NCBI GenBank assembly: GCA_016650015.1
Contig: JAENWV010000006.1
Span: 1 to 34,658 of the forward strand
DNA length: 34,658 bases
Direction: 5' to 3'
DNA from: Thermoleophilia bacterium
Lineage (GTDB): Bacteria > Actinomycetota > Thermoleophilia > BMS3ABIN01
Shown: one piece after another, positions 4,509-26,682 of the stretch
How positions within the stretch are numbered: the first letter of the stretch is position 1
Layout of the letters: the number at the start of each line of letters is the position of its first letter
Translations under genes and position numbers: made by a program
Notes under the pieces: generated by a model
What the model was told of the DNA's origin: nothing
The model's input: only the letters and a program-made list of their open reading frames with translations
The model's database searches: none

Positions 4509-5627
4509 TTGGAACACGAAGAGATGTCCCTATTTCCCGGGTTATCGCGAAGAGATTTCCTCAAGAGCTGTGGCGCGCTGGCCGGCCTGATAGGCCTCAG
4601 CGGACCCATGGCGGCGCCGAGGGTCGCTCGGGCCCTCGAGCAGATGGCCAAACGCCCCTCGGTTGTCTGGTCATGTTTTCAGGAATGTCTGGGCTGCTCG
4701 ATAAATCTCCTGCAATCGCGGAAACCCAATCCGGCCAATCTGATCCTGCAGCAGATTTCCCTCGACTACCACGAAGCGGTCATGGCCGCCGCGGGCTCCC
4801 AGGCGGAAAAGAGCTTCCGGGAGACCGTCGACTCCAAAGATTTCTATTACGTGGTGGAAGGCGGCATCGCCACCGGCATACCCGAAGCCTGCACCATCGG
4901 CGGCAAGACCTCGATGGATATCTGCAAGGATACTTACCAGAAGGCCAAGGCGACCATCGCCATCGGCACCTGCGCCACCTACGGCGGCATCCAGGCGGCG
5001 AAACCCAACCCCACCGGCTCCAAGGGTGTAGCCGACTTCCTCAGGGAAGATGGCGGCATCAAGGATCCCGTGGTCATCAACTCGCCGCGCTGCCCCGGCA
5101 ACGCGGACGACACGGTCGCCATCCTGCTTTACGCCATCGTCAACAAGAAGCTGCCTGAGCTGGACAGTCTGGGCCGACCCAAATTCCTCTTCGGCCAGAC
5201 CGTGCACGACAACTGTGAGCGCCGCGGTCACTTCGACGCCGGCGAGTTCGTGGAACAGTTTGGCGACGAGGGCTCCCAGGAGGGCTGGTGTCTGTATAAG
5301 GTCGGCTGCAAGGGACCGGTGGCCTATGCTCCCTGTCCCAAGACCCGCTGGAACGCCAACACCGCGTGGCCGGTTTCGGCCGGCGGGCCGTGCATCGCTT
5401 GCTCGGAGCCGGACTTCTGGGACAAGCATTCGCCGTTTTATGAAAAAGCGCCGGGCATCATGCTGCCGGGCGATATCACACCCACCCAGATCGGCGTCGG
5501 CCTCGGGGCCCTGACGGCAGCGGGCATCGGCGCCCACTTCGTCGGCCAGGCCGCTACCGGCCGGCTATTCAAAGGGGCGCCGGTAGAAGGCCAAAATGAA
5601 CCAGGCTCCGAAGAAGGAGGTAAGTAG
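4509..5627 (+). CDS. [NiFe]-hydrogenase small subunit, Tat-exported
   Basis: The electron-transfer subunit of a membrane-bound group 1 uptake hydrogenase. An N-terminal Tat signal (SRRDFLK at 13-19, then a hydrophobic stretch) targets the folded dimer outside the cytoplasm. Proximal cluster ligands are C60 and C63 (ECLGCS), C155 (GTCATYGG) and C195 (SPRCPG). The distal cluster has H233, C236, C261 and C267, and the medial cluster C276, C295 and C298. P288 (WPV) is at the position that is proline in standard enzymes with a [3Fe-4S] medial cluster and cysteine in Desulfovibrio [NiFeSe] enzymes. A weakly hydrophobic C-terminal segment (about 325-347) may help anchor it. Start TTG at 4509 has GGGAGG ten bases upstream; ATG at 4524 is an alternative that keeps the Tat motif. 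Its stop abuts the ATG of the large subunit, whose ribosome site lies inside this gene. Confidence 0.96.
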   Translation: MEHEEMSLFPGLSRRDFLKSCGALAGLIGLSGPMAAPRVARALEQMAKRPSVVWSCFQECLGCSINLLQSRKPNPANLILQQISLDYHEAVMAAAGSQAEKSFRETVDSKDFYYVVEGGIATGIPEACTIGGKTSMDICKDTYQKAKATIAIGTCATYGGIQAAKPNPTGSKGVADFLREDGGIKDPVVINSPRCPGNADDTVAILLYAIVNKKLPELDSLGRPKFLFGQTVHDNCERRGHFDAGEFVEQFGDEGSQEGWCLYKVGCKGPVAYAPCPKTRWNANTAWPVSAGGPCIACSEPDFWDKHSPFYEKAPGIMLPGDITPTQIGVGLGALTAAGIGAHFVGQAATGRLFKGAPVEGQNEPGSEEGGK

Positions 5628-7262
5628 ATGACCAAAGTAGTCATCGATCCCATCACCCGGATAGAAGGCCACCTGCGCATCACCTGCGTGGTGGAAAACG
5701 GCAAGGTAACGGACGCCTGGAACACGGCGACCATGTTTCGCGGTTTTGAAATCTTCATGAAGGACCGCGACCCCAAGAGCATCTGGCAATTCGCCCAGCG
5801 GATCTGCGGCGTCTGCCCGACACCGCACGCCTATAATTCGGTGCGGGCGGTGGAAAACGCCGCGGGGATGAAAACGGTGCCTGACAGCGTGCGCCTCATC
5901 CGCAACATGATGGAGACGACACAGCTGGCCTACGATCACATCCTCTGGTTTTATCACCTGAACGGCTTCGACTACGTCAACGTGCCCAACGCGCTCAACG
6001 CCAAGCCGGGCACACCGGGGCTCAAGGCGGTACAGGACCAGGTCAAGGCGGTCGTCGATTCCGGACAGCTCGGCCCCTTCGCCAACATGTACTGGGACCA
6101 CCCCGGCTACAAGCTGCCGGCGGACATGGACTTGGAGATCACGGCCCACTACCTGCAGGCGCTGGACATCCAGCAGAAAGCCTGCGACGCCAGCGCCGTC
6201 CTGGGCGGCCGCTATCCCATGATCAACAACTACGTGCCGGGCGGCGTCACCCAGATGCCCAGCATCGAGGATATCGAGTTCTATATCTCGCAGATGGGGA
6301 TCGTCAAGGACTTCATCGACACCGTCATGGTGCCGGACCTGCTGGCCATCGCGCCCTACTATCTCGACCTGGCCACTTACGGCAAGGGAGTCGGCAATTT
6401 CCTCACCTGGGGCGTGCTGGACGAGAAAAGTCAGGATCCCTATGACCGGCTCTTCCCAAGAGGCGGCATCTTCGACGGCAAGCTGGCGCTGGAGAAGGTC
6501 GACCTCGCCGAGGCCCGCAAATATACCAAGACCTCCTGGTTCCCGGATGACTTGGGCGGCGGCAAGCATCCGCTCGAGGTGGGCCAGATACCGCAGCAGT
6601 TCACCAAGATGCCGGCCATGGACGGCACGGCCGGACCCGCTGCCAACGACAAGTACGACTGGACCCAGGCGCTGCGCTACGGCAAGGAGGTCCGCCCCAT
6701 GGAGGTCGGACCGCTGGCCCAGGTGCTGGTCGCTTACCTGGCCGGCCGGCCCGAAGCCAAGAAGCTAGTGGACGACACCCTGGCCGCGATCGGGCATGCC
6801 GGCGATCCCACGGTGCTGCTTTCCAACCTGGGCCGCGTGGCCGCCCGCGTCCTCAAAGCCAAGATCAATTCCGACAACGCCCTGCGCTGGGCCAATGAAC
6901 TGCTGGCCAACATCGGTAGCGGCGAAACCAAGATCTACGAGGAGCTGGACTTTAGCAAGGACGGCACCGGCGAGAGCGGCTGGGACGCTCCCCGCGGGGC
7001 GCTGGCCCATTACGCCAAGATCAAGGGCGGCAAGATCGACACCTACGCGGCGAATCCGCCGTCCAACTGGAACCTCTCACCCAGAGACGACAACGGCGTG
7101 CGCGGTCCGGTCGAGGAGGCCCTGGTGGGGATACCGGTGGTCGATACCGAGAAACCACTGGAGATCTTGCGAACCGTGCACACATTCGATCCATGAATGG
7201 CTTGCGCGGTTCACGTGATTGAACCGAAATCCAACAAAGTCCTCAAGTTCCAGGTGCGGTAG
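5628..7262 (+). CDS. [NiFeSe]-hydrogenase large subunit with selenocysteine (TGA at 7194-7196)
   Basis: The catalytic subunit, which oxidises H2 at a Ni-Fe centre. It starts MTKVVIDPITRIEGH. The N-terminal nickel motif RICGVCPTPH gives C60, C63 and H67. A naive reading stops at TGA (7194-7196) after FDP, but the frame continues in register as MACAVHVIEPKSNKVLKFQVR to TAG at 7260-7262. This exactly completes the family's DPCxxCxxH ending with selenocysteine 523 in place of the first cysteine (DP-U-MAC-AVH; C526, H529). The full product is 544 residues. Maturation proteases of this family cut after that histidine, so a 15-residue tail (V530-R544) should be removed after nickel insertion. A SECIS-like hairpin lies at 7207-7226. 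The cytochrome gene starts 10 bases after TAG. Loss of the nickel-binding motif by true termination is very unlikely, since the tail is fully conserved. Confidence 0.94.
7194..7226 (+). promoter_or_regulatory. bacterial SECIS-like element of the hydrogenase large subunit
   Basis: Ten bases after the TGA there is a perfect 7-bp hairpin: CGGTTCA (7207-7213), loop CGTGAT (7214-7219), TGAACCG (7220-7226). Numbering the U of UGA as 1, the loop GU is at 22-23; in the E. coli fdhF SECIS the SelB-contacting GU is at 23-24. The hairpin sits inside codons for A527 to P533, so it is compatible with a coding function. Position, size and loop GU all fit a SelB-dependent element; binding itself is inferred. 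Confidence 0.78.
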
Positions 7263-7272
7263 GCGATCTGTT

Positions 7273-7923
7273 ATGGGTCATTTACCGCCAACCAGAGAAG
7301 AGCATCCGCTACCGGCAGTCATCATGCACGCCGTTCATATGGTTTCGCTGGTCCTGCTGGTATTCACCGGGTTTTATATTCACAGCCCGTTCTTCAGCGG
7401 TTTCATGGGATACGCGCGGTCCATCCACCAGGTGGCCATGTGGACCTTCGTCTTCACTACGGTCATCCGGTTGTACTGGGCCTTCTTCGGCGCCGGATCG
7501 GCGCCTTCCGGCAGGCGGACCAAGCGGCGCGATTTTCACTGGTTCAGCCCGATAAGGCACAAGGGTGAAGGTAATTTCAGGGATACGCTCAAGTATTACC
7601 TTTTCCTGCGCAAGACCCATCCCGTGGTCGACAAGTTCAACCCGCTGCAGAAGGGTACCTATCTCTTCTGGGCTTTTGTACTGATACCGTTGACGCTGCT
7701 CACGGGGCTTTGCCTCTGGACGCCGACCCAGTCGTTCTTTGAATCATTCACCTACTGGGCCGGTGGCCTGGCGGCCATGCGCAGTTATCACTACCTGCTG
7801 ATGTGGGTCTTCATCGTCACCGCCGGCATTCACCTCTATCTGGTCGTGGCTGAGGTCGCCAGGAAGCTACCTCTGATGTTCGCCTGGAAAGAGGGCAAGA
7901 ATGCGCCGCCAAAACGAACGTAG
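7273..7923 (+). CDS. hydrogenase b-type cytochrome subunit
   Basis: A 216-residue membrane protein of the HyaC/HupC di-haem cytochrome b family, which anchors the hydrogenase dimer and passes electrons to the quinone pool. Four hydrophobic segments lie at about 16-38, 54-72, 130-150 and 172-195. Histidines positioned as haem-ligand candidates are H19 or H22 in helix 1, H52 before helix 2, and H173 (SYHYLLMW) and H187 in helix 4. The start is ATG at 7273; an earlier in-frame start at 7219 is excluded because that stretch encodes the selenoprotein tail of the large subunit in another frame. The ribosome site is weak, so translation may depend on ribosomes arriving from the large subunit, i.e. 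on TGA read-through. It belongs to the hydrogenase operon. Confidence 0.92.
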   Translation: MGHLPPTREEHPLPAVIMHAVHMVSLVLLVFTGFYIHSPFFSGFMGYARSIHQVAMWTFVFTTVIRLYWAFFGAGSAPSGRRTKRRDFHWFSPIRHKGEGNFRDTLKYYLFLRKTHPVVDKFNPLQKGTYLFWAFVLIPLTLLTGLCLWTPTQSFFESFTYWAGGLAAMRSYHYLLMWVFIVTAGIHLYLVVAEVARKLPLMFAWKEGKNAPPKRT

Positions 7924-7931
7924 TCAGATAA

Positions 7932-8447
7932 TTGGCGGACTTGACTGAAGCTGACGGGGGCGCGGGCGCCGCAGGCGCCCGCGCCCCCTCCATAACCATC
8001 CTCGGCGTCGGCAACACGCTGATGGGCGACGATGGCTTAGGCATCTTCGTTGTCGATGGCCTGGACGCCGAAGCTCTCGGCCCCGGGGTCAGCGTTATCG
8101 CCGGCGACACCGCCGGCATGGCCCTTCTAAAACACTTCCTCGAGTCCGACGTGGTCATCGTCGTCGACGCCATGGCCGCCGAAGCCGAGCCCGGCGCCAT
8201 CTTTCGCTTCGACCCTGACGAGGCCGGTATAATGAACCTGCGCTCCAACAACATCCACGGCATGGGCGTTCCTCACCTGGTGACCAACGCCCGGCTCATG
8301 GGGGCCGACCCCCAGGTCACTGTCTTTGCCGTGCAGGTCGGCAGCGTCCAGCCCCGCAACCTTGAGCTCACCCCGCCAGTGGAGTCTGCAGTTGAGCGGG
8401 TCAGAGAGTTGATAGCGGCCGAAGTTGCTCAGCTGCTCGGGAATTGA
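7932..8447 (+). CDS. hydrogenase maturation protease
   Basis: A 171-residue endopeptidase of the HyaD/HybD/HupD family, which removes the C-terminal tail of the hydrogenase large subunit after nickel insertion. The signature GVGNTLMGDDGLG is at residues 25-37. By comparison with HybD the nickel-sensing residues are D34, D79 (VVDAM) and H109 (NIHGMG). Its likely substrate is the large subunit, cut after H529; here the residue near the site is selenocysteine instead of cysteine. The given start is TTG at 7932, eight bases after the cytochrome stop, with no clear ribosome site; the extra ~20 Gly/Ala-rich residues before GVGN suggest the true start may be slightly later. No hypA-F genes are in the window. 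Confidence 0.92.
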   Translation: MADLTEADGGAGAAGARAPSITILGVGNTLMGDDGLGIFVVDGLDAEALGPGVSVIAGDTAGMALLKHFLESDVVIVVDAMAAEAEPGAIFRFDPDEAGIMNLRSNNIHGMGVPHLVTNARLMGADPQVTVFAVQVGSVQPRNLELTPPVESAVERVRELIAAEVAQLLGN

Positions 8448-10618: not shown

Positions 10619-10647
10619 CCAGGATCAACGATCATTTTTTTATATAT

Positions 10648-10696
10648 GGCGATGAGGCTCGCCTTTAACCGCTCGCTGAGAGCTAATGGCTTCTAC
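10648..10696 (+). promoter_or_regulatory. fluoride riboswitch (crcB motif)
   Basis: The sequence matches the crcB-motif aptamer closely. The first hairpin is GGCGA...TCGCC, with loop TGAGGC, at 10648-10663. TTTAACC links it to a second hairpin GCTC...GAGC at 10671-10683. The conserved TAATGGCTTCTAC follows at 10684-10696. The loop GAGGC can pair with GCTTC to form the pseudoknot known from the Thermotoga petrophila structure. In this class fluoride with Mg2+ stabilises the aptamer and turns expression on. The gene for a CrcB fluoride channel lies directly downstream, and an overlapping terminator supplies the switch. Confidence 0.95.
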
Positions 10697-10718
10697 AGGA
10701 AACTGTGGGAGCTTTTTT
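10689..10718 (+). terminator. riboswitch-controlled intrinsic terminator
   Basis: GCTTCTACAG (10689-10698), loop GAAA, and CTGTGGGAGC (10703-10712) form a 10-bp stem including G-U pairs, followed by six T (10713-10718). The left arm shares GCTTCTAC with the 3' part of the fluoride aptamer, so ligand-bound aptamer and terminator exclude each other. Fluoride would therefore permit read-through into crcB. Confidence 0.93.
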
Positions 10719-10782
10719 AGTTCCGAAACGTCAGTCGGTAACAGGGATCAGGCTACCGAAAGCGCTGAGCCCGGGAGGCAGC

Positions 10783-10809
10783 ATGAGAAAAGCAGCCAGC
10801 ACGTGTTGA
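10783..10809 (+). CDS. eight-codon minigene overlapping the crcB start
   Basis: GGGAGG at 10773-10778 is the only strong ribosome site in the crcB leader, and the ATG at the right distance (10783) opens an eight-codon frame (MRKAASTC, TGA). Its stop overlaps the in-frame GTG (10803) and TTG (10806) candidates for crcB. It may serve translational coupling. It is equally possible that the peptide has no role of its own. Confidence 0.45.
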   Translation: MRKAASTC

Positions 10810-11177
10810 ATTATCTGGTAATCGGGCTGGGCGGTTTCGCCGGCGCCGTCGGCCGGTACATAATCGCCCTCTGGATCGGCGAGCGCTGGGGGAGAAGCTT
10901 CCCGTTGGGTACTCTGACAGTCAACATCAGTGGCTGTTTCCTGATTGGGCTGCTCATGTCGGTGTTCCTGGAAAAAACAATGGTCAGCCCCCAGTGGCGA
11001 TCTTTTCTGGTGGTCGGGTTTCTGGGCGCCTACACCACTTTCTCCGCCTTTGAATACGAAACCGGCGGCCTGGTGAAAGACGGTGAGCTGCTTTTCGCGG
11101 CACTTAATGTCATTCTAAGCGTGGCGGCCGGCTTCGCCGCCCTCAAACTCGGCGAGGTGCTCGCCAGGGGATTCTAG
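10803..11177 (+). CDS. crcB: CrcB/Fluc fluoride channel
   Basis: A small four-helix membrane protein of the Fluc family, which assembles as a dual-topology dimer and exports fluoride. Diagnostic segments are YLVIGLGGFAGAVGRY near the start, GTLTVNISGCFLIGLL, and GFLGAYTTFSAFEYET, the last holding the Thr and Phe residues that line the ion path. The frame is open back to an ATG at 10686, but that lies inside the riboswitch aptamer and upstream of its terminator. The family N-terminus fits a start at GTG 10803 or TTG 10806, giving about 124 residues, the usual length. The gene heads a fluoride-controlled unit with the DUF190 and phosphoesterase genes. Confidence 0.94.
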   Translation: MLNYLVIGLGGFAGAVGRYIIALWIGERWGRSFPLGTLTVNISGCFLIGLLMSVFLEKTMVSPQWRSFLVVGFLGAYTTFSAFEYETGGLVKDGELLFAALNVILSVAAGFAALKLGEVLARGF

Positions 11178-17375: not shown

Positions 17376-18437
17376 ATGGGGGACAAAGAAGAGATACGGC
17401 TTACACAGCTCGCCCATGGCGCCGGCTGAGCCTGCAAGATAAGTCCGTCGGACTTGCAAACAGTGCTCAAGGAGTTGCCACCGGTGACCAACCCGAACGT
17501 GCTGGTGGGCATCAACACCGGCGACGACTGCGCCGTCTACCAGATAACCGAAGAACTCGCCATCATCCAGACGGTGGATTATTTCACGCCCATCGTCGAT
17601 GACCCGTACGACTACGGCGCCATCGCTGTCGCCAACGCCCTCAGCGATGTCTATGCAATGGGAGCGAAGCCGCTGTTCGCGCTCAACGTGGTCGGCTTCC
17701 ATACCCGAGGCATGCCACTGGAGATCCTCATTCGAATGATGAAGGGCGGTGGCGACAAGGCCCGCGAGGCCGGCGTTGACATCGTCGGTGGCCACACCAT
17801 CGACGACAAGGAGCCCAAGTACGGTCTTTCGGTAACTGGCGTGATCAAACCAGGCGAGATCGTTTACAACTCGACCGCCCAGGTGGGTGATGTGCTCTTT
17901 CTGACCAAACCCCTGGGAGTCGGCATCCTGACCACCGGCATCAAGCGGGGAACCGTTTCAGAGGCTGCCATTGCCAGGGGCGTGGAGGTAATGGCCGCAC
18001 TCAACAGGAGCGCATCCGAAGCCATGGTACAGGTTGGCGTCAACGCCTGCACCGACATCACCGGTTATGGGCTGCTGGGCCACCTGGGAGAGATGACCCG
18101 GGGAAGCGGTGTCGGCGCCAGGATACACGCCCGCGCCGTGCCTGTCATGCAGGCAGCACGCGACCTCATAGACGCCGACCTGAACGCGGTCCCAGGTGGC
18201 AGCAAGAACAACCTGGACTTCGTCAGGCAATTTGTGAATTTCGACCCGTCCATCACCGAGGCCGAGAGGTTGATACTGGCGGACGCACAAACGTCGGGAG
18301 GGCTTTTGATCTCCTGTCCGGCCGGGAAAGCCGATCAAATGGAGCAAGCCCTGAAGGACGCGGGAACTATTATCGCGGCGCGCATAGGAGTGATGGAGGC
18401 AGAGGATGATACCGGCCGAATAGACGTGGTGCCCTAG
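17376..18437 (+). CDS. selD: selenide, water dikinase (SelD) with selenocysteine (TGA at 17427-17429)
   Basis: SelD makes selenophosphate from selenide and ATP, the donor for selenocysteine synthesis. The real start is ATG 17376 with GGGGAGG just upstream. The frame passes through TGA at codon 18 in LAHGAG-U-ACKISP, where other SelD proteins have the catalytic Cys or Sec, followed by the essential lysine (K21). It continues to TAG at 18437, giving 353 residues. Further motifs are VGINTGDDCAVY, VDYFTPIVDDPYDYG, ANALSDVYAMGA, VGGHTIDD, and CTDITGYGLLGHL. Without read-through only a truncated form from TTG 17454 would be predicted, lacking the active site. A hairpin with a GU loop follows the TGA. 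The product supplies selenium for itself and for the hydrogenase; selA, selB and selC are not in the window. Confidence 0.96.
17427..17455 (+). promoter_or_regulatory. bacterial SECIS-like element of selD
   Basis: AAGTCC (17441-17446), loop GTC, GGACTT (17450-17455) form a perfect 6-bp hairpin 11 bases after the TGA. Counting U of UGA as 1, loop GU is at 21-22, one base off the hydrogenase element (22-23). An overlapping alternative stem, GCAAG (17434-17438) with CTTGC (17453-17457), would extend or compete with it. Geometry fits SelB recognition; binding is inferred. Confidence 0.72.
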
Positions 18438-25037: not shown

Positions 25038-25883
25038 GTGATCGTTGACTGTCACACCCATATATTCTCGCCGGAGATAATCGCCGGGCGCGAGGCACAC
25101 CTGCAACAGGAGGAGTGGTTCGCCCACCTCTACGGCTCTACCAACGCCCCCATGGCAGGCGCCAGAGAGCTGGTCGCCGAGATGGATCGCTGCGGCGTCG
25201 ACCGGTCGGTGGTCTGCGGCTTCGCCTGGAACAGCTTCGATCTCTATGTCGAGACCAATTCCTATATTGCCGACGCTGTTCGGCGTTTTCCCGACCGGCT
25301 GGTGGGCTTTGCCAACGTCCTGCCTCTGGATCCGCGAGCGCCGCGGGAGCTGGAGCGCTGCCTGGATCTCGGCCTGCGCGGAATCGGTGAACTCAAACCG
25401 GGCGGGCAGGAATTCGACCTTGCCGACGATGAGGGGCTGAAGCCGCTGGTGGTGATCGCGAAAGAAAATGGCCTGCCGCTGCTGGTCCACCTCAGCGAAC
25501 CGGTTGGACGGCTGTATCCCGGCAAGGGACAGACGAGCCCCCGTAAAGGTTTTGACTTTGCCTCACGGCACCCCGACCTTGATTTGATCTATGCCCATTG
25601 GGGCGGCGGGCTTCCATTTTATGAACTGATGCCGGACGTGCGGGAAGCGCTCGCCAATGTCCGGTATGATTGCTCGGCCAGCCCTTATCTTTACAGCCCG
25701 GAGGTATATCGGGTCACCCTCGATGTCGTGGGGCGTGAAAAGATACTTTTCGGCAGTGACTATCCGCTGATCTCTCCGGAACGCTATATGGAAGAGATGG
25801 ATGGCCTGAGGCTGGCTGACGAAGATCGTGCCGCCATCATGGGCGGAAATGCCGCGGTTCTGCTCGGGCTGGAGACCGGATAG
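25038..25883 (+). CDS. TIM-barrel amidohydrolase (PF04909-type)
   Basis: A 281-residue metal-dependent hydrolase of the amidohydrolase_2/ACMSD-like family. Metal-binding features are the N-terminal DCHTHIF (H6, H8), LLVHLSEP on a central strand, IYAHWGGG, and FGSDYP near the C-terminus with the catalytic aspartate. Family members hydrolyse or decarboxylate ring or carboxylate substrates; this one's substrate is not evident. The start is GTG at 25038, with the frame not extending usefully upstream. It ends 25 bases before the larB start, so the aldolase, amidohydrolase and larB genes probably form one unit. Confidence 0.88.
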   Translation: MIVDCHTHIFSPEIIAGREAHLQQEEWFAHLYGSTNAPMAGARELVAEMDRCGVDRSVVCGFAWNSFDLYVETNSYIADAVRRFPDRLVGFANVLPLDPRAPRELERCLDLGLRGIGELKPGGQEFDLADDEGLKPLVVIAKENGLPLLVHLSEPVGRLYPGKGQTSPRKGFDFASRHPDLDLIYAHWGGGLPFYELMPDVREALANVRYDCSASPYLYSPEVYRVTLDVVGREKILFGSDYPLISPERYMEEMDGLRLADEDRAAIMGGNAAVLLGLETG

Positions 25884-25908
25884 ACCCCAATCAACTACTG
25901 GAGATACC

Positions 25909-26682
25909 TTGAACTCGCGCGAAATTCTGGAAAACCTTGCCGCTGGCGACATCTCAGTCGAAGAGGCACAATCGCGGCTCTCACTGGCGGGAGTCTCCGC
26001 CATCGAAGATTTCGCGCGGCTAGATACCGAACGCCACGCCCGTAAAGGCGTTCCCGAAGTCGTCTATGCTCCCGGGAAAACCGTTGAGCAGCTATTGAAG
26101 ATCTGCGGCGCCATGGTCCAACAGGCCGGGCGGGCAATCGCCAGTGGTCTGGATGAGGAGCAATGGGCGGCGCTCGAAAAAACTTTCCCGGGCCAGCTTG
26201 CCGTAGCCAACCGGGACGCAAAAACAGCGGTCTTGCGCGCGCCTGGGCGAGAGCCTGTGCTCACGGGCGGAAAACTCGGCATCCTTTCCGCGGGCACGGC
26301 CGATATGCCAGCCGCCGAACAGGCGAGGGTCATCGCCGAAGAGATGGGCTGTGAGGTAATCGTGGCATACGATGTGGGCGTCGCCGGCGTTCACCGATTG
26401 GTTGATCCTTTAAGAAACATGATCGATTCCGAGGTCGCCGCCATCATCGTCGCCGCCGGAATGGAGGGCGCCCTGCCTTCCGTCGTGGCCGGACTGGTGC
26501 CAACGCCAGTCATCGGCTTGCCCACTTCGACCGGTTATGGATTGGGAGGCGGCGGCATAGCCGCTCTGCTCACCATGCTCCAAAGCTGTTGCCCCGGTCT
26601 GGTTGTGGTCAACATCGATAACGGCGTCGGCGCCGGCGCCACCGGTGCGCTGATAGCCAACCGCGCGGCGCGGCAAAAGTAG
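25909..26682 (+). CDS. larB: nickel-pincer nucleotide biosynthesis protein LarB
   Basis: LarB carboxylates and hydrolyses nicotinic acid adenine dinucleotide to pyridinium-3,5-dicarboxylate mononucleotide, the first step to the nickel-pincer cofactor of lactate racemase-type enzymes. The N-terminal half has LDTERHARKGVPEVVYAPGKT. The C-terminal PurE-like domain has GILSAGTADMPAAEQA, YDVGVAGVHRL, VAAGMEGALPSVVAGL, and NIDNGVGAGATGA. The open frame reaches 25828, inside the amidohydrolase gene, but TTG at 25909 with GGAG six bases upstream gives the usual 257-residue protein. larA, larC and larE are absent from the window. Confidence 0.92.
   Translation: MNSREILENLAAGDISVEEAQSRLSLAGVSAIEDFARLDTERHARKGVPEVVYAPGKTVEQLLKICGAMVQQAGRAIASGLDEEQWAALEKTFPGQLAVANRDAKTAVLRAPGREPVLTGGKLGILSAGTADMPAAEQARVIAEEMGCEVIVAYDVGVAGVHRLVDPLRNMIDSEVAAIIVAAGMEGALPSVVAGLVPTPVIGLPTSTGYGLGGGGIAALLTMLQSCCPGLVVVNIDNGVGAGATGALIANRAARQK

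Follow-up and report, generated by a model that had tools for sequence, protein, structure and literature searches.

The window, a 34,658-nucleotide stretch of DNA from a Thermoleophilia bacterium, encodes a predicted selenocysteine (Sec)-containing group 1 [NiFe] hydrogenase, in which proline occupies the place of the fourth medial-cluster ligand, cysteine in the sister Sec enzymes. The best explanation overall, to which a probability of about 0.83 is assigned, is that of a non-HysAB Sec enzyme that exchanged this cysteine for proline, with a medial cluster predicted to be [3Fe-4S] and a role in H2 uptake. It is a Sec group 1 hydrogenase that has secondarily regained an ordinary-type medial site, and does not constitute a new enzyme class.

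In reviews, a medial [4Fe-4S] cluster is given as a feature of [NiFeSe] enzymes, whose strong H2 production and behaviour towards O2 are tied to Sec; in the characterised [NiFeSe] enzymes the medial cluster is a second difference accompanying Sec. The clade described here and its Cys-type sisters form a natural pair in which the medial ligand differs and Sec is constant, so that the contributions of Sec and of the medial cluster become separable, and it is this that should interest hydrogenase specialists.

Table 1. Features of the window; positions are counted from its first nucleotide.
Feature	Position	Strand	Evidence
[NiFe] hydrogenase small subunit, 372 aa, TTG start	4509..5627	+	TIGR00391 hydA 340 bits (cut-off 179.5); PF14720 and PF01058
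Tat signal region, SRRDFLK	4509..4638	+	TIGR01409 23.2 bits (cut-off 16.7)
C276, medial-cluster ligand	5334..5336	+	numbering from TTG 4509; alignment
P288, codon CCG, place of fourth medial ligand; Cys in sister Sec enzymes	5370..5372	+	numbering, alignment, codons
C295, medial-cluster ligand	5391..5393	+	numbering, alignment
C298, medial-cluster ligand	5400..5402	+	numbering, alignment
Small-subunit C-terminal hydrophobic anchor helix	5481..5558	+	tail hydropathy; also in Cys-type Sec relatives
Hydrogenase large subunit, 544 aa with Sec523	5628..7262	+	PF00374 482 bits; in-frame TGA read through
TGA, Sec523 in DPUMACAVH, first Cys position of C-terminal Ni-binding motif	7194..7196	+	translation, alignment
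SECIS apical hairpin CGGTTCA-CGTGAT-TGAACCG	7207..7226	+	third-base invariance; 13 nt from first base of TGA
Cytochrome b subunit (Ni_hydr_CYTB)	7273..7923	+	PF01292 93 bits; TIGR02125 107 bits, under cut-off 121.5
Hydrogenase maturation protease, HycI/HupD type	7932..8447	+	PF01750 63 bits; TIGR00072 115.6 bits, over cut-off
Fluoride riboswitch	10639..10702	+	RF01734 56.4 bits
crcB, fluoride channel	10686..11177	+	
selD, selenophosphate synthetase	17454..18437	+	TIGR00476 345.8 bits (cut-off 125)
larB, nickel-pincer cofactor biosynthesis	25828..26682	+	NF033503 239 bits

The selenocysteine codon

As is expected of a Sec-containing group 1 [NiFe] hydrogenase, the in-frame TGA of the large subunit replaces the codon for the first Cys of DPxxxC, and a SECIS hairpin lies just 3′ of it. 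Across 27 Sec genes, third-base identity at codons +4 to +9 after the TGA is 100% wherever rows encode the same residue; upstream, the mean share is 0.62. The conserved positions form the hairpin given in Table 1; the pattern is absent from 14 Cys genes. Folding of the window SECIS alone was not significant against shuffled sequences (z -0.85). The frame runs on past the TGA with a conserved MACAVH and VIEP extension, and the same genome contains selA (511.6 bits), followed, where the contig breaks off, by the start of selB, in addition to selD. The tRNA-Sec gene (selC) was not among the eight best candidates in this 85% complete genome, these being Ser, Leu, Cys and other ordinary tRNAs, an absence that the incompleteness can explain.

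That the TGA is a true stop, leaving a truncated large subunit and no Sec enzyme, is scarcely credible: nothing speaks for it but the codon itself and the selC gene missing from an incomplete genome, whereas the open frame beyond it, the third bases invariant in Sec but not in Cys genes, and the presence of selA, selD and the selB start all speak against it. The stop was rejected on the conservation of the SECIS and of the reading frame, and the Sec catalysis predicted by an earlier, sequence-only reading is upheld at this level.

Residues at the medial site

The sequence-only reading had named C276, C295 and C298 as ligands of the medial cluster and placed P288 within a WPV motif; numbering from the TTG at 4509 reproduces all four exactly, with P288, C295 and C298 inside positions 5369–5404 and C276 slightly upstream. 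HMMER matches this motif to the identical WPV of an ordinary [NiFe] hydrogenase, that of D. vulgaris Miyazaki F (1h2a), whereas WCV stands at the aligned place in the HysB proteins of D. vulgaris and Dm. baculatum; the sequence-only reading, too, gave Desulfovibrio [NiFeSe] enzymes Cys there. The alignment leaves no ambiguity at this site. The same Pro is shared by 10 more distinct sequences, taken from other genomes; with 11 in all, chance or an assembly error in a single genome is ruled out. Elsewhere in the small subunit, the proximal ligands C60, C63, C155 and C195 and the distal ligands H233, C236, C261 and C267 are conserved. Residues 62 and 160 are Gly, where three reference [NiFe] rows have Cys; the extra Cys of the six-Cys proximal site of O2-tolerant group 1d are absent from the window alignment.

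With the fourth ligand changed from Cys to Pro and three Cys remaining, the medial cluster should be [3Fe-4S], as had been predicted. In other proteins, [4Fe-4S] clusters with a non-Cys fourth ligand exist, and the window enzyme could in principle hold one here, completed by a non-cysteine or solvent ligand. This is improbable, as uptake [NiFe] enzymes have Pro at this site together with [3Fe-4S], [NiFeSe] enzymes having Cys (PMC3701524).

The premise that ordinary [NiFe] enzymes have Pro at this place proved too simple, holding in L025 and L026 but not in the other non-Sec enzymes of the L023–L033 group, which have Cys. Those with Cys (L023, L024, L027, L028, L030–L033) are probably coriobacterial hydrogenases, and judging by them, medial-site Cys is not tied to Sec. 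A third state, Val (WVI), is found in the Cys-type enzymes L093 and L094, near the HysAB clade. In two HysAB-like Sec enzymes (L059 and L075) the first medial Cys lies two residues away from its place in HysB (SCDAWKR and YCDTWKR, compared with ADCFERK).

Phylogeny of both subunits

The small-subunit tree, from which column 288 was excluded, unites the 11 Sec enzymes with Pro in one clade (support 96/96), itself within a 17-row Sec clade (100/100) whose remaining six rows have Cys. The large-subunit tree agrees (12 rows, 99, inside 18 rows, 100), as does the tree of the joined subunits, where the Pro-Sec clade is supported at 99. Three changes of medial state fall on the tree: in the Pro-Sec clade, in the ordinary Pro-type enzymes, and to Val in L093 and L094. 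The polarity of Cys and Pro was taken from parsimony with no root inferred, so the order of Sec gain and loss cannot be set.

Neither subunit falls within the Desulfovibrio HysAB clade in the small, large or joined trees, and a union of the Pro-Sec and HysB clades is rejected (p-AU 2e-26); membership in HysAB was dismissed on these grounds, and the suggestion of a Sec lineage independent of HysAB is borne out. A further suggestion, that the proline had been kept, did not survive. According to it, an ordinary [NiFe] enzyme with ancestral Pro either acquired Sec or retained it, which would suit both the resemblance of the WPV and SEPDF loop to ordinary [NiFe] enzymes and the phmmer matches of the small subunit, which place [NiFe] structures ahead of [NiFeSe]. 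Such a history is nonetheless very improbable. Cys stands at the site in the closest Sec relatives (L008–L011, L013 and L084) and in every deeper Sec row, and keeping Pro would call for repeated changes from Pro to Cys. A single clade of all Pro enzymes, imposed as a constraint, is rejected (p-AU 1.6e-5), with which membership in the Pro-type [NiFe] lineage of D. vulgaris MF, Hyd-1, Hyd-2 and MBH falls too. Since the nearest Sec relatives and the deeper Sec branches are all of Cys type, the best reading of the sequences is that Pro arose secondarily from Cys in an enzyme that already contained Sec; Sec would then have been inherited from Cys-type ancestors, and not gained in a Pro-type enzyme.

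From cysteine to proline

The Pro codons (CCG/CCC, CCN) are at least two substitutions away from the sister codons (TGC/TGT, TGY); the single-step intermediates between TGY and CCY encode Ser or Arg. Ten differences are fixed between the sister and the Pro clade, and three of these (C288P, N291A and A299S) fall in one 12-residue stretch at the medial loop, all agreeing with the [NiFe] consensus; the probability of three changes in a given stretch of 12 residues is 0.007, for a stretch picked after the data had been seen. These three changes speak for a recombination event, in place of point substitutions, in which the small-subunit gene of a Pro-type [NiFe] enzyme donated the loop segment. The flanking residues, however, stay sister-like (RWNG.ISW.V..GPCIGC) with no foreign block visible, genera g2 and g3 retain a one-residue gap of the sister that is absent in g1, and the non-Sec Pro-type loci of the phylum (L025 and L026) are distant, making import unlikely.

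As to why the change was fixed, it is tentatively proposed that selection in this Sec lineage exchanged the medial [4Fe-4S] for a high-potential [3Fe-4S] cluster through Cys-to-Pro together with N291A and A299S, shifting the Sec enzyme toward one-way H2 oxidation; if so, two traits that are paired in the characterised [NiFeSe] enzymes would have been separated in evolution. Published observations bear on this in different ways. In D. fructosovorans, P238C made uptake about 30% lower and evolution almost twice as high (PMC3701524). In Alteromonas, the P-to-C change by itself brought no gain in evolution activity (PMC3701524), from which the functional effect may be small, and A. vinosum is a fast proton reducer although its medial [3Fe-4S] lies over 0.3 V above equilibrium (PMC13111528). 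The latter two observations favour near-neutral drift with little catalytic effect, which competes with the explanation in its functional part only, and whose chances lie somewhat below even. Against drift stand the need for at least two base changes, the fixation of Pro in the sampled clade members across three genera, and the two further changes in the same loop that accompany it toward the [NiFe] consensus.

Comparison with known enzymes

The HysAB [NiFeSe] enzymes of Desulfovibrio and Desulfomicrobium (PDB 2wpn, 5jsh, 1cc1 and 4kl8) resemble the window enzyme in having Sec at the same Ni ligand, a Tat-type small subunit with His/3Cys distal and 4-Cys proximal sites, and an anaerobic, sulfur-cycle host. 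They differ in forming a separate clade in both subunit trees, and in HysB, which has the medial-site Cys giving [4Fe-4S] where the window has P288, and which ends right after the core without a membrane-anchor tail (L075 and PDB chain). The window scores under the cut-offs of NF045518, NF045520 and NF033181. HydDB places the [NiFeSe] variants of group 1 under 1a (PMC5037454).

Closer are the uncharacterised Aquicultor-type Sec hydrogenases (L008–L011, L013 and L057), which are about 67–74% identical in the large subunit and share Sec, SECIS, anchor tail and cytochrome b, but have WCV, with Cys at 288, and are thus expected to hold a [4Fe-4S] cluster. The Tat signal, the C-terminal anchor tail and cytochrome b are common to the Cys-type Sec relatives as well. 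The sequence-only reading had called the joining of Sec, a [3Fe-4S] wire, a Tat signal and a cytochrome b anchor unusual; this stands for Sec with Pro, found here in one clade only, but not for the Tat signal and cytochrome b, which are ordinary in such relatives. Since the Cys-type sisters have the same type of cytochrome b, a new partner does not explain the switch from Cys to Pro.

A counterpart has also been made in the laboratory. In the E. coli Hyd-2 variant C546U, Sec replaces the same Ni ligand (DPCMACAVH in HybC compared with DPUMACAVH), and the medial site of HybO has Pro, although HybA/HybB take the place of cytochrome b (PMC11212049). The substitution erased the oxidation bias and relieved H2 inhibition (PMC11212049), and the window enzyme, as judged from sequence, is a natural analogue of this engineered combination. 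The D. fructosovorans variant P238C (Rousset 1998, cited in PMC3701524) concerns the same position and the same [3Fe-4S]/[4Fe-4S] change, but in the opposite direction and without Sec, the window representing a natural change of Cys to Pro in a Sec enzyme. No report of a natural combination of Sec and Pro was found in a literature search whose reach mostly excluded subscription papers.

Predicted electron path and role

The enzyme would be a membrane-anchored, Tat-exported group 1 H2-uptake hydrogenase, in which Sec serves as the terminal Ni ligand and accepts protons. According to the trees, it belongs to an actinobacterial and deltaproteobacterial Sec lineage apart from HysAB, whose ancestors had medial-site Cys and in which one clade of uncultured Actinomycetota changed the fourth ligand to Pro. 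The medial cluster would thereby have passed from [4Fe-4S] to high-potential [3Fe-4S], and electrons would run from the NiFe(Se) site through the proximal [4Fe-4S], medial [3Fe-4S] and distal His/Cys [4Fe-4S] clusters to cytochrome b and menaquinone, in what would be a menaquinone-linked uptake hydrogenase. From there they would probably feed sulfate or sulfite reduction, as suggested by the operon and by dsrA in the same genome (493 bits, cut-off 393); a complete Dsr pathway is known from other Thermoleophilia (PMC10591310). Going by the published mutants, the expected effect of the change is that a bias toward H2 oxidation is restored where Sec favours H2 production.

Distribution of the Sec lineage

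The survey covered 397 genomes of the phylum, 199 of the class, 19 of the family, and 36 of the class of the Aquicultor-like relatives, together with a Sec-motif pattern scan over 84,980 species genomes and 10 further divergent hydrogenase loci fetched from the phylum. The pattern required Ala before the second Cys and missed HysA of the LGC kind; HysAB rows were added from the PDB. Sixteen of the 19 family genomes have a Sec enzyme, of the Pro type in 11 and of a separate Cys type in five, and across the sampled Sec enzymes, 11 distinct sequences with Pro, in a single clade, compare with about 37 with Cys. In the data searched, the Pro-Sec clade is confined to one family, in which it spans three genera (g1, g2 and g3), and its records bear the names of uncultured Thermoleophilia or Actinomycetes. 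Among named records, ‘Thermoleophilia bacterium DeMMO3_11’ (L068) and ‘Actinomycetes bacterium DBS2-5.bin27’ (L036) come closest. Every divergent locus of the phylum with Sec and a readable small subunit has Cys at the site.

A 2026 review pictures [NiFeSe] hydrogenases as present only in sulfate reducers and methanogens (PMC13188914). A sizeable actinobacterial Sec lineage extends this picture, yet the window's own genome has dsrA.

Several members of the wider sample merit mention in their own right. A broad Sec, cytochrome b-linked group 1 lineage (L045, L055, L064, L054, L017–L018, L089–L092, L015, L049 and L086) from uncultured Actinomycetota and Deltaproteobacteria, apart from HysAB, seems to be little described. 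One relative of the Sec lineage (L016, G003:C15:6251-7837) has Cys in DPCLACTVH, with several bases of the SECIS hairpin changed; its branch may have lost Sec or may never have carried it. A divergent Sec type (L125 and L127–L132, from G049, G224, G073, G343, G005, G106 and G192), about 35–40% identical to the window, occurs in small-genome Actinomycetota and has medial-site Cys in all members.

In the window's genome, one open frame elsewhere (G000:C256:4303-5445) has two weak matches to the hydrogenase large-subunit family, and may be another [NiFe] hydrogenase or a relative. Within the window itself, larB is a second nickel-related gene, and a fluoride riboswitch overlaps the listed start of crcB, which is followed by a DUF190 gene.
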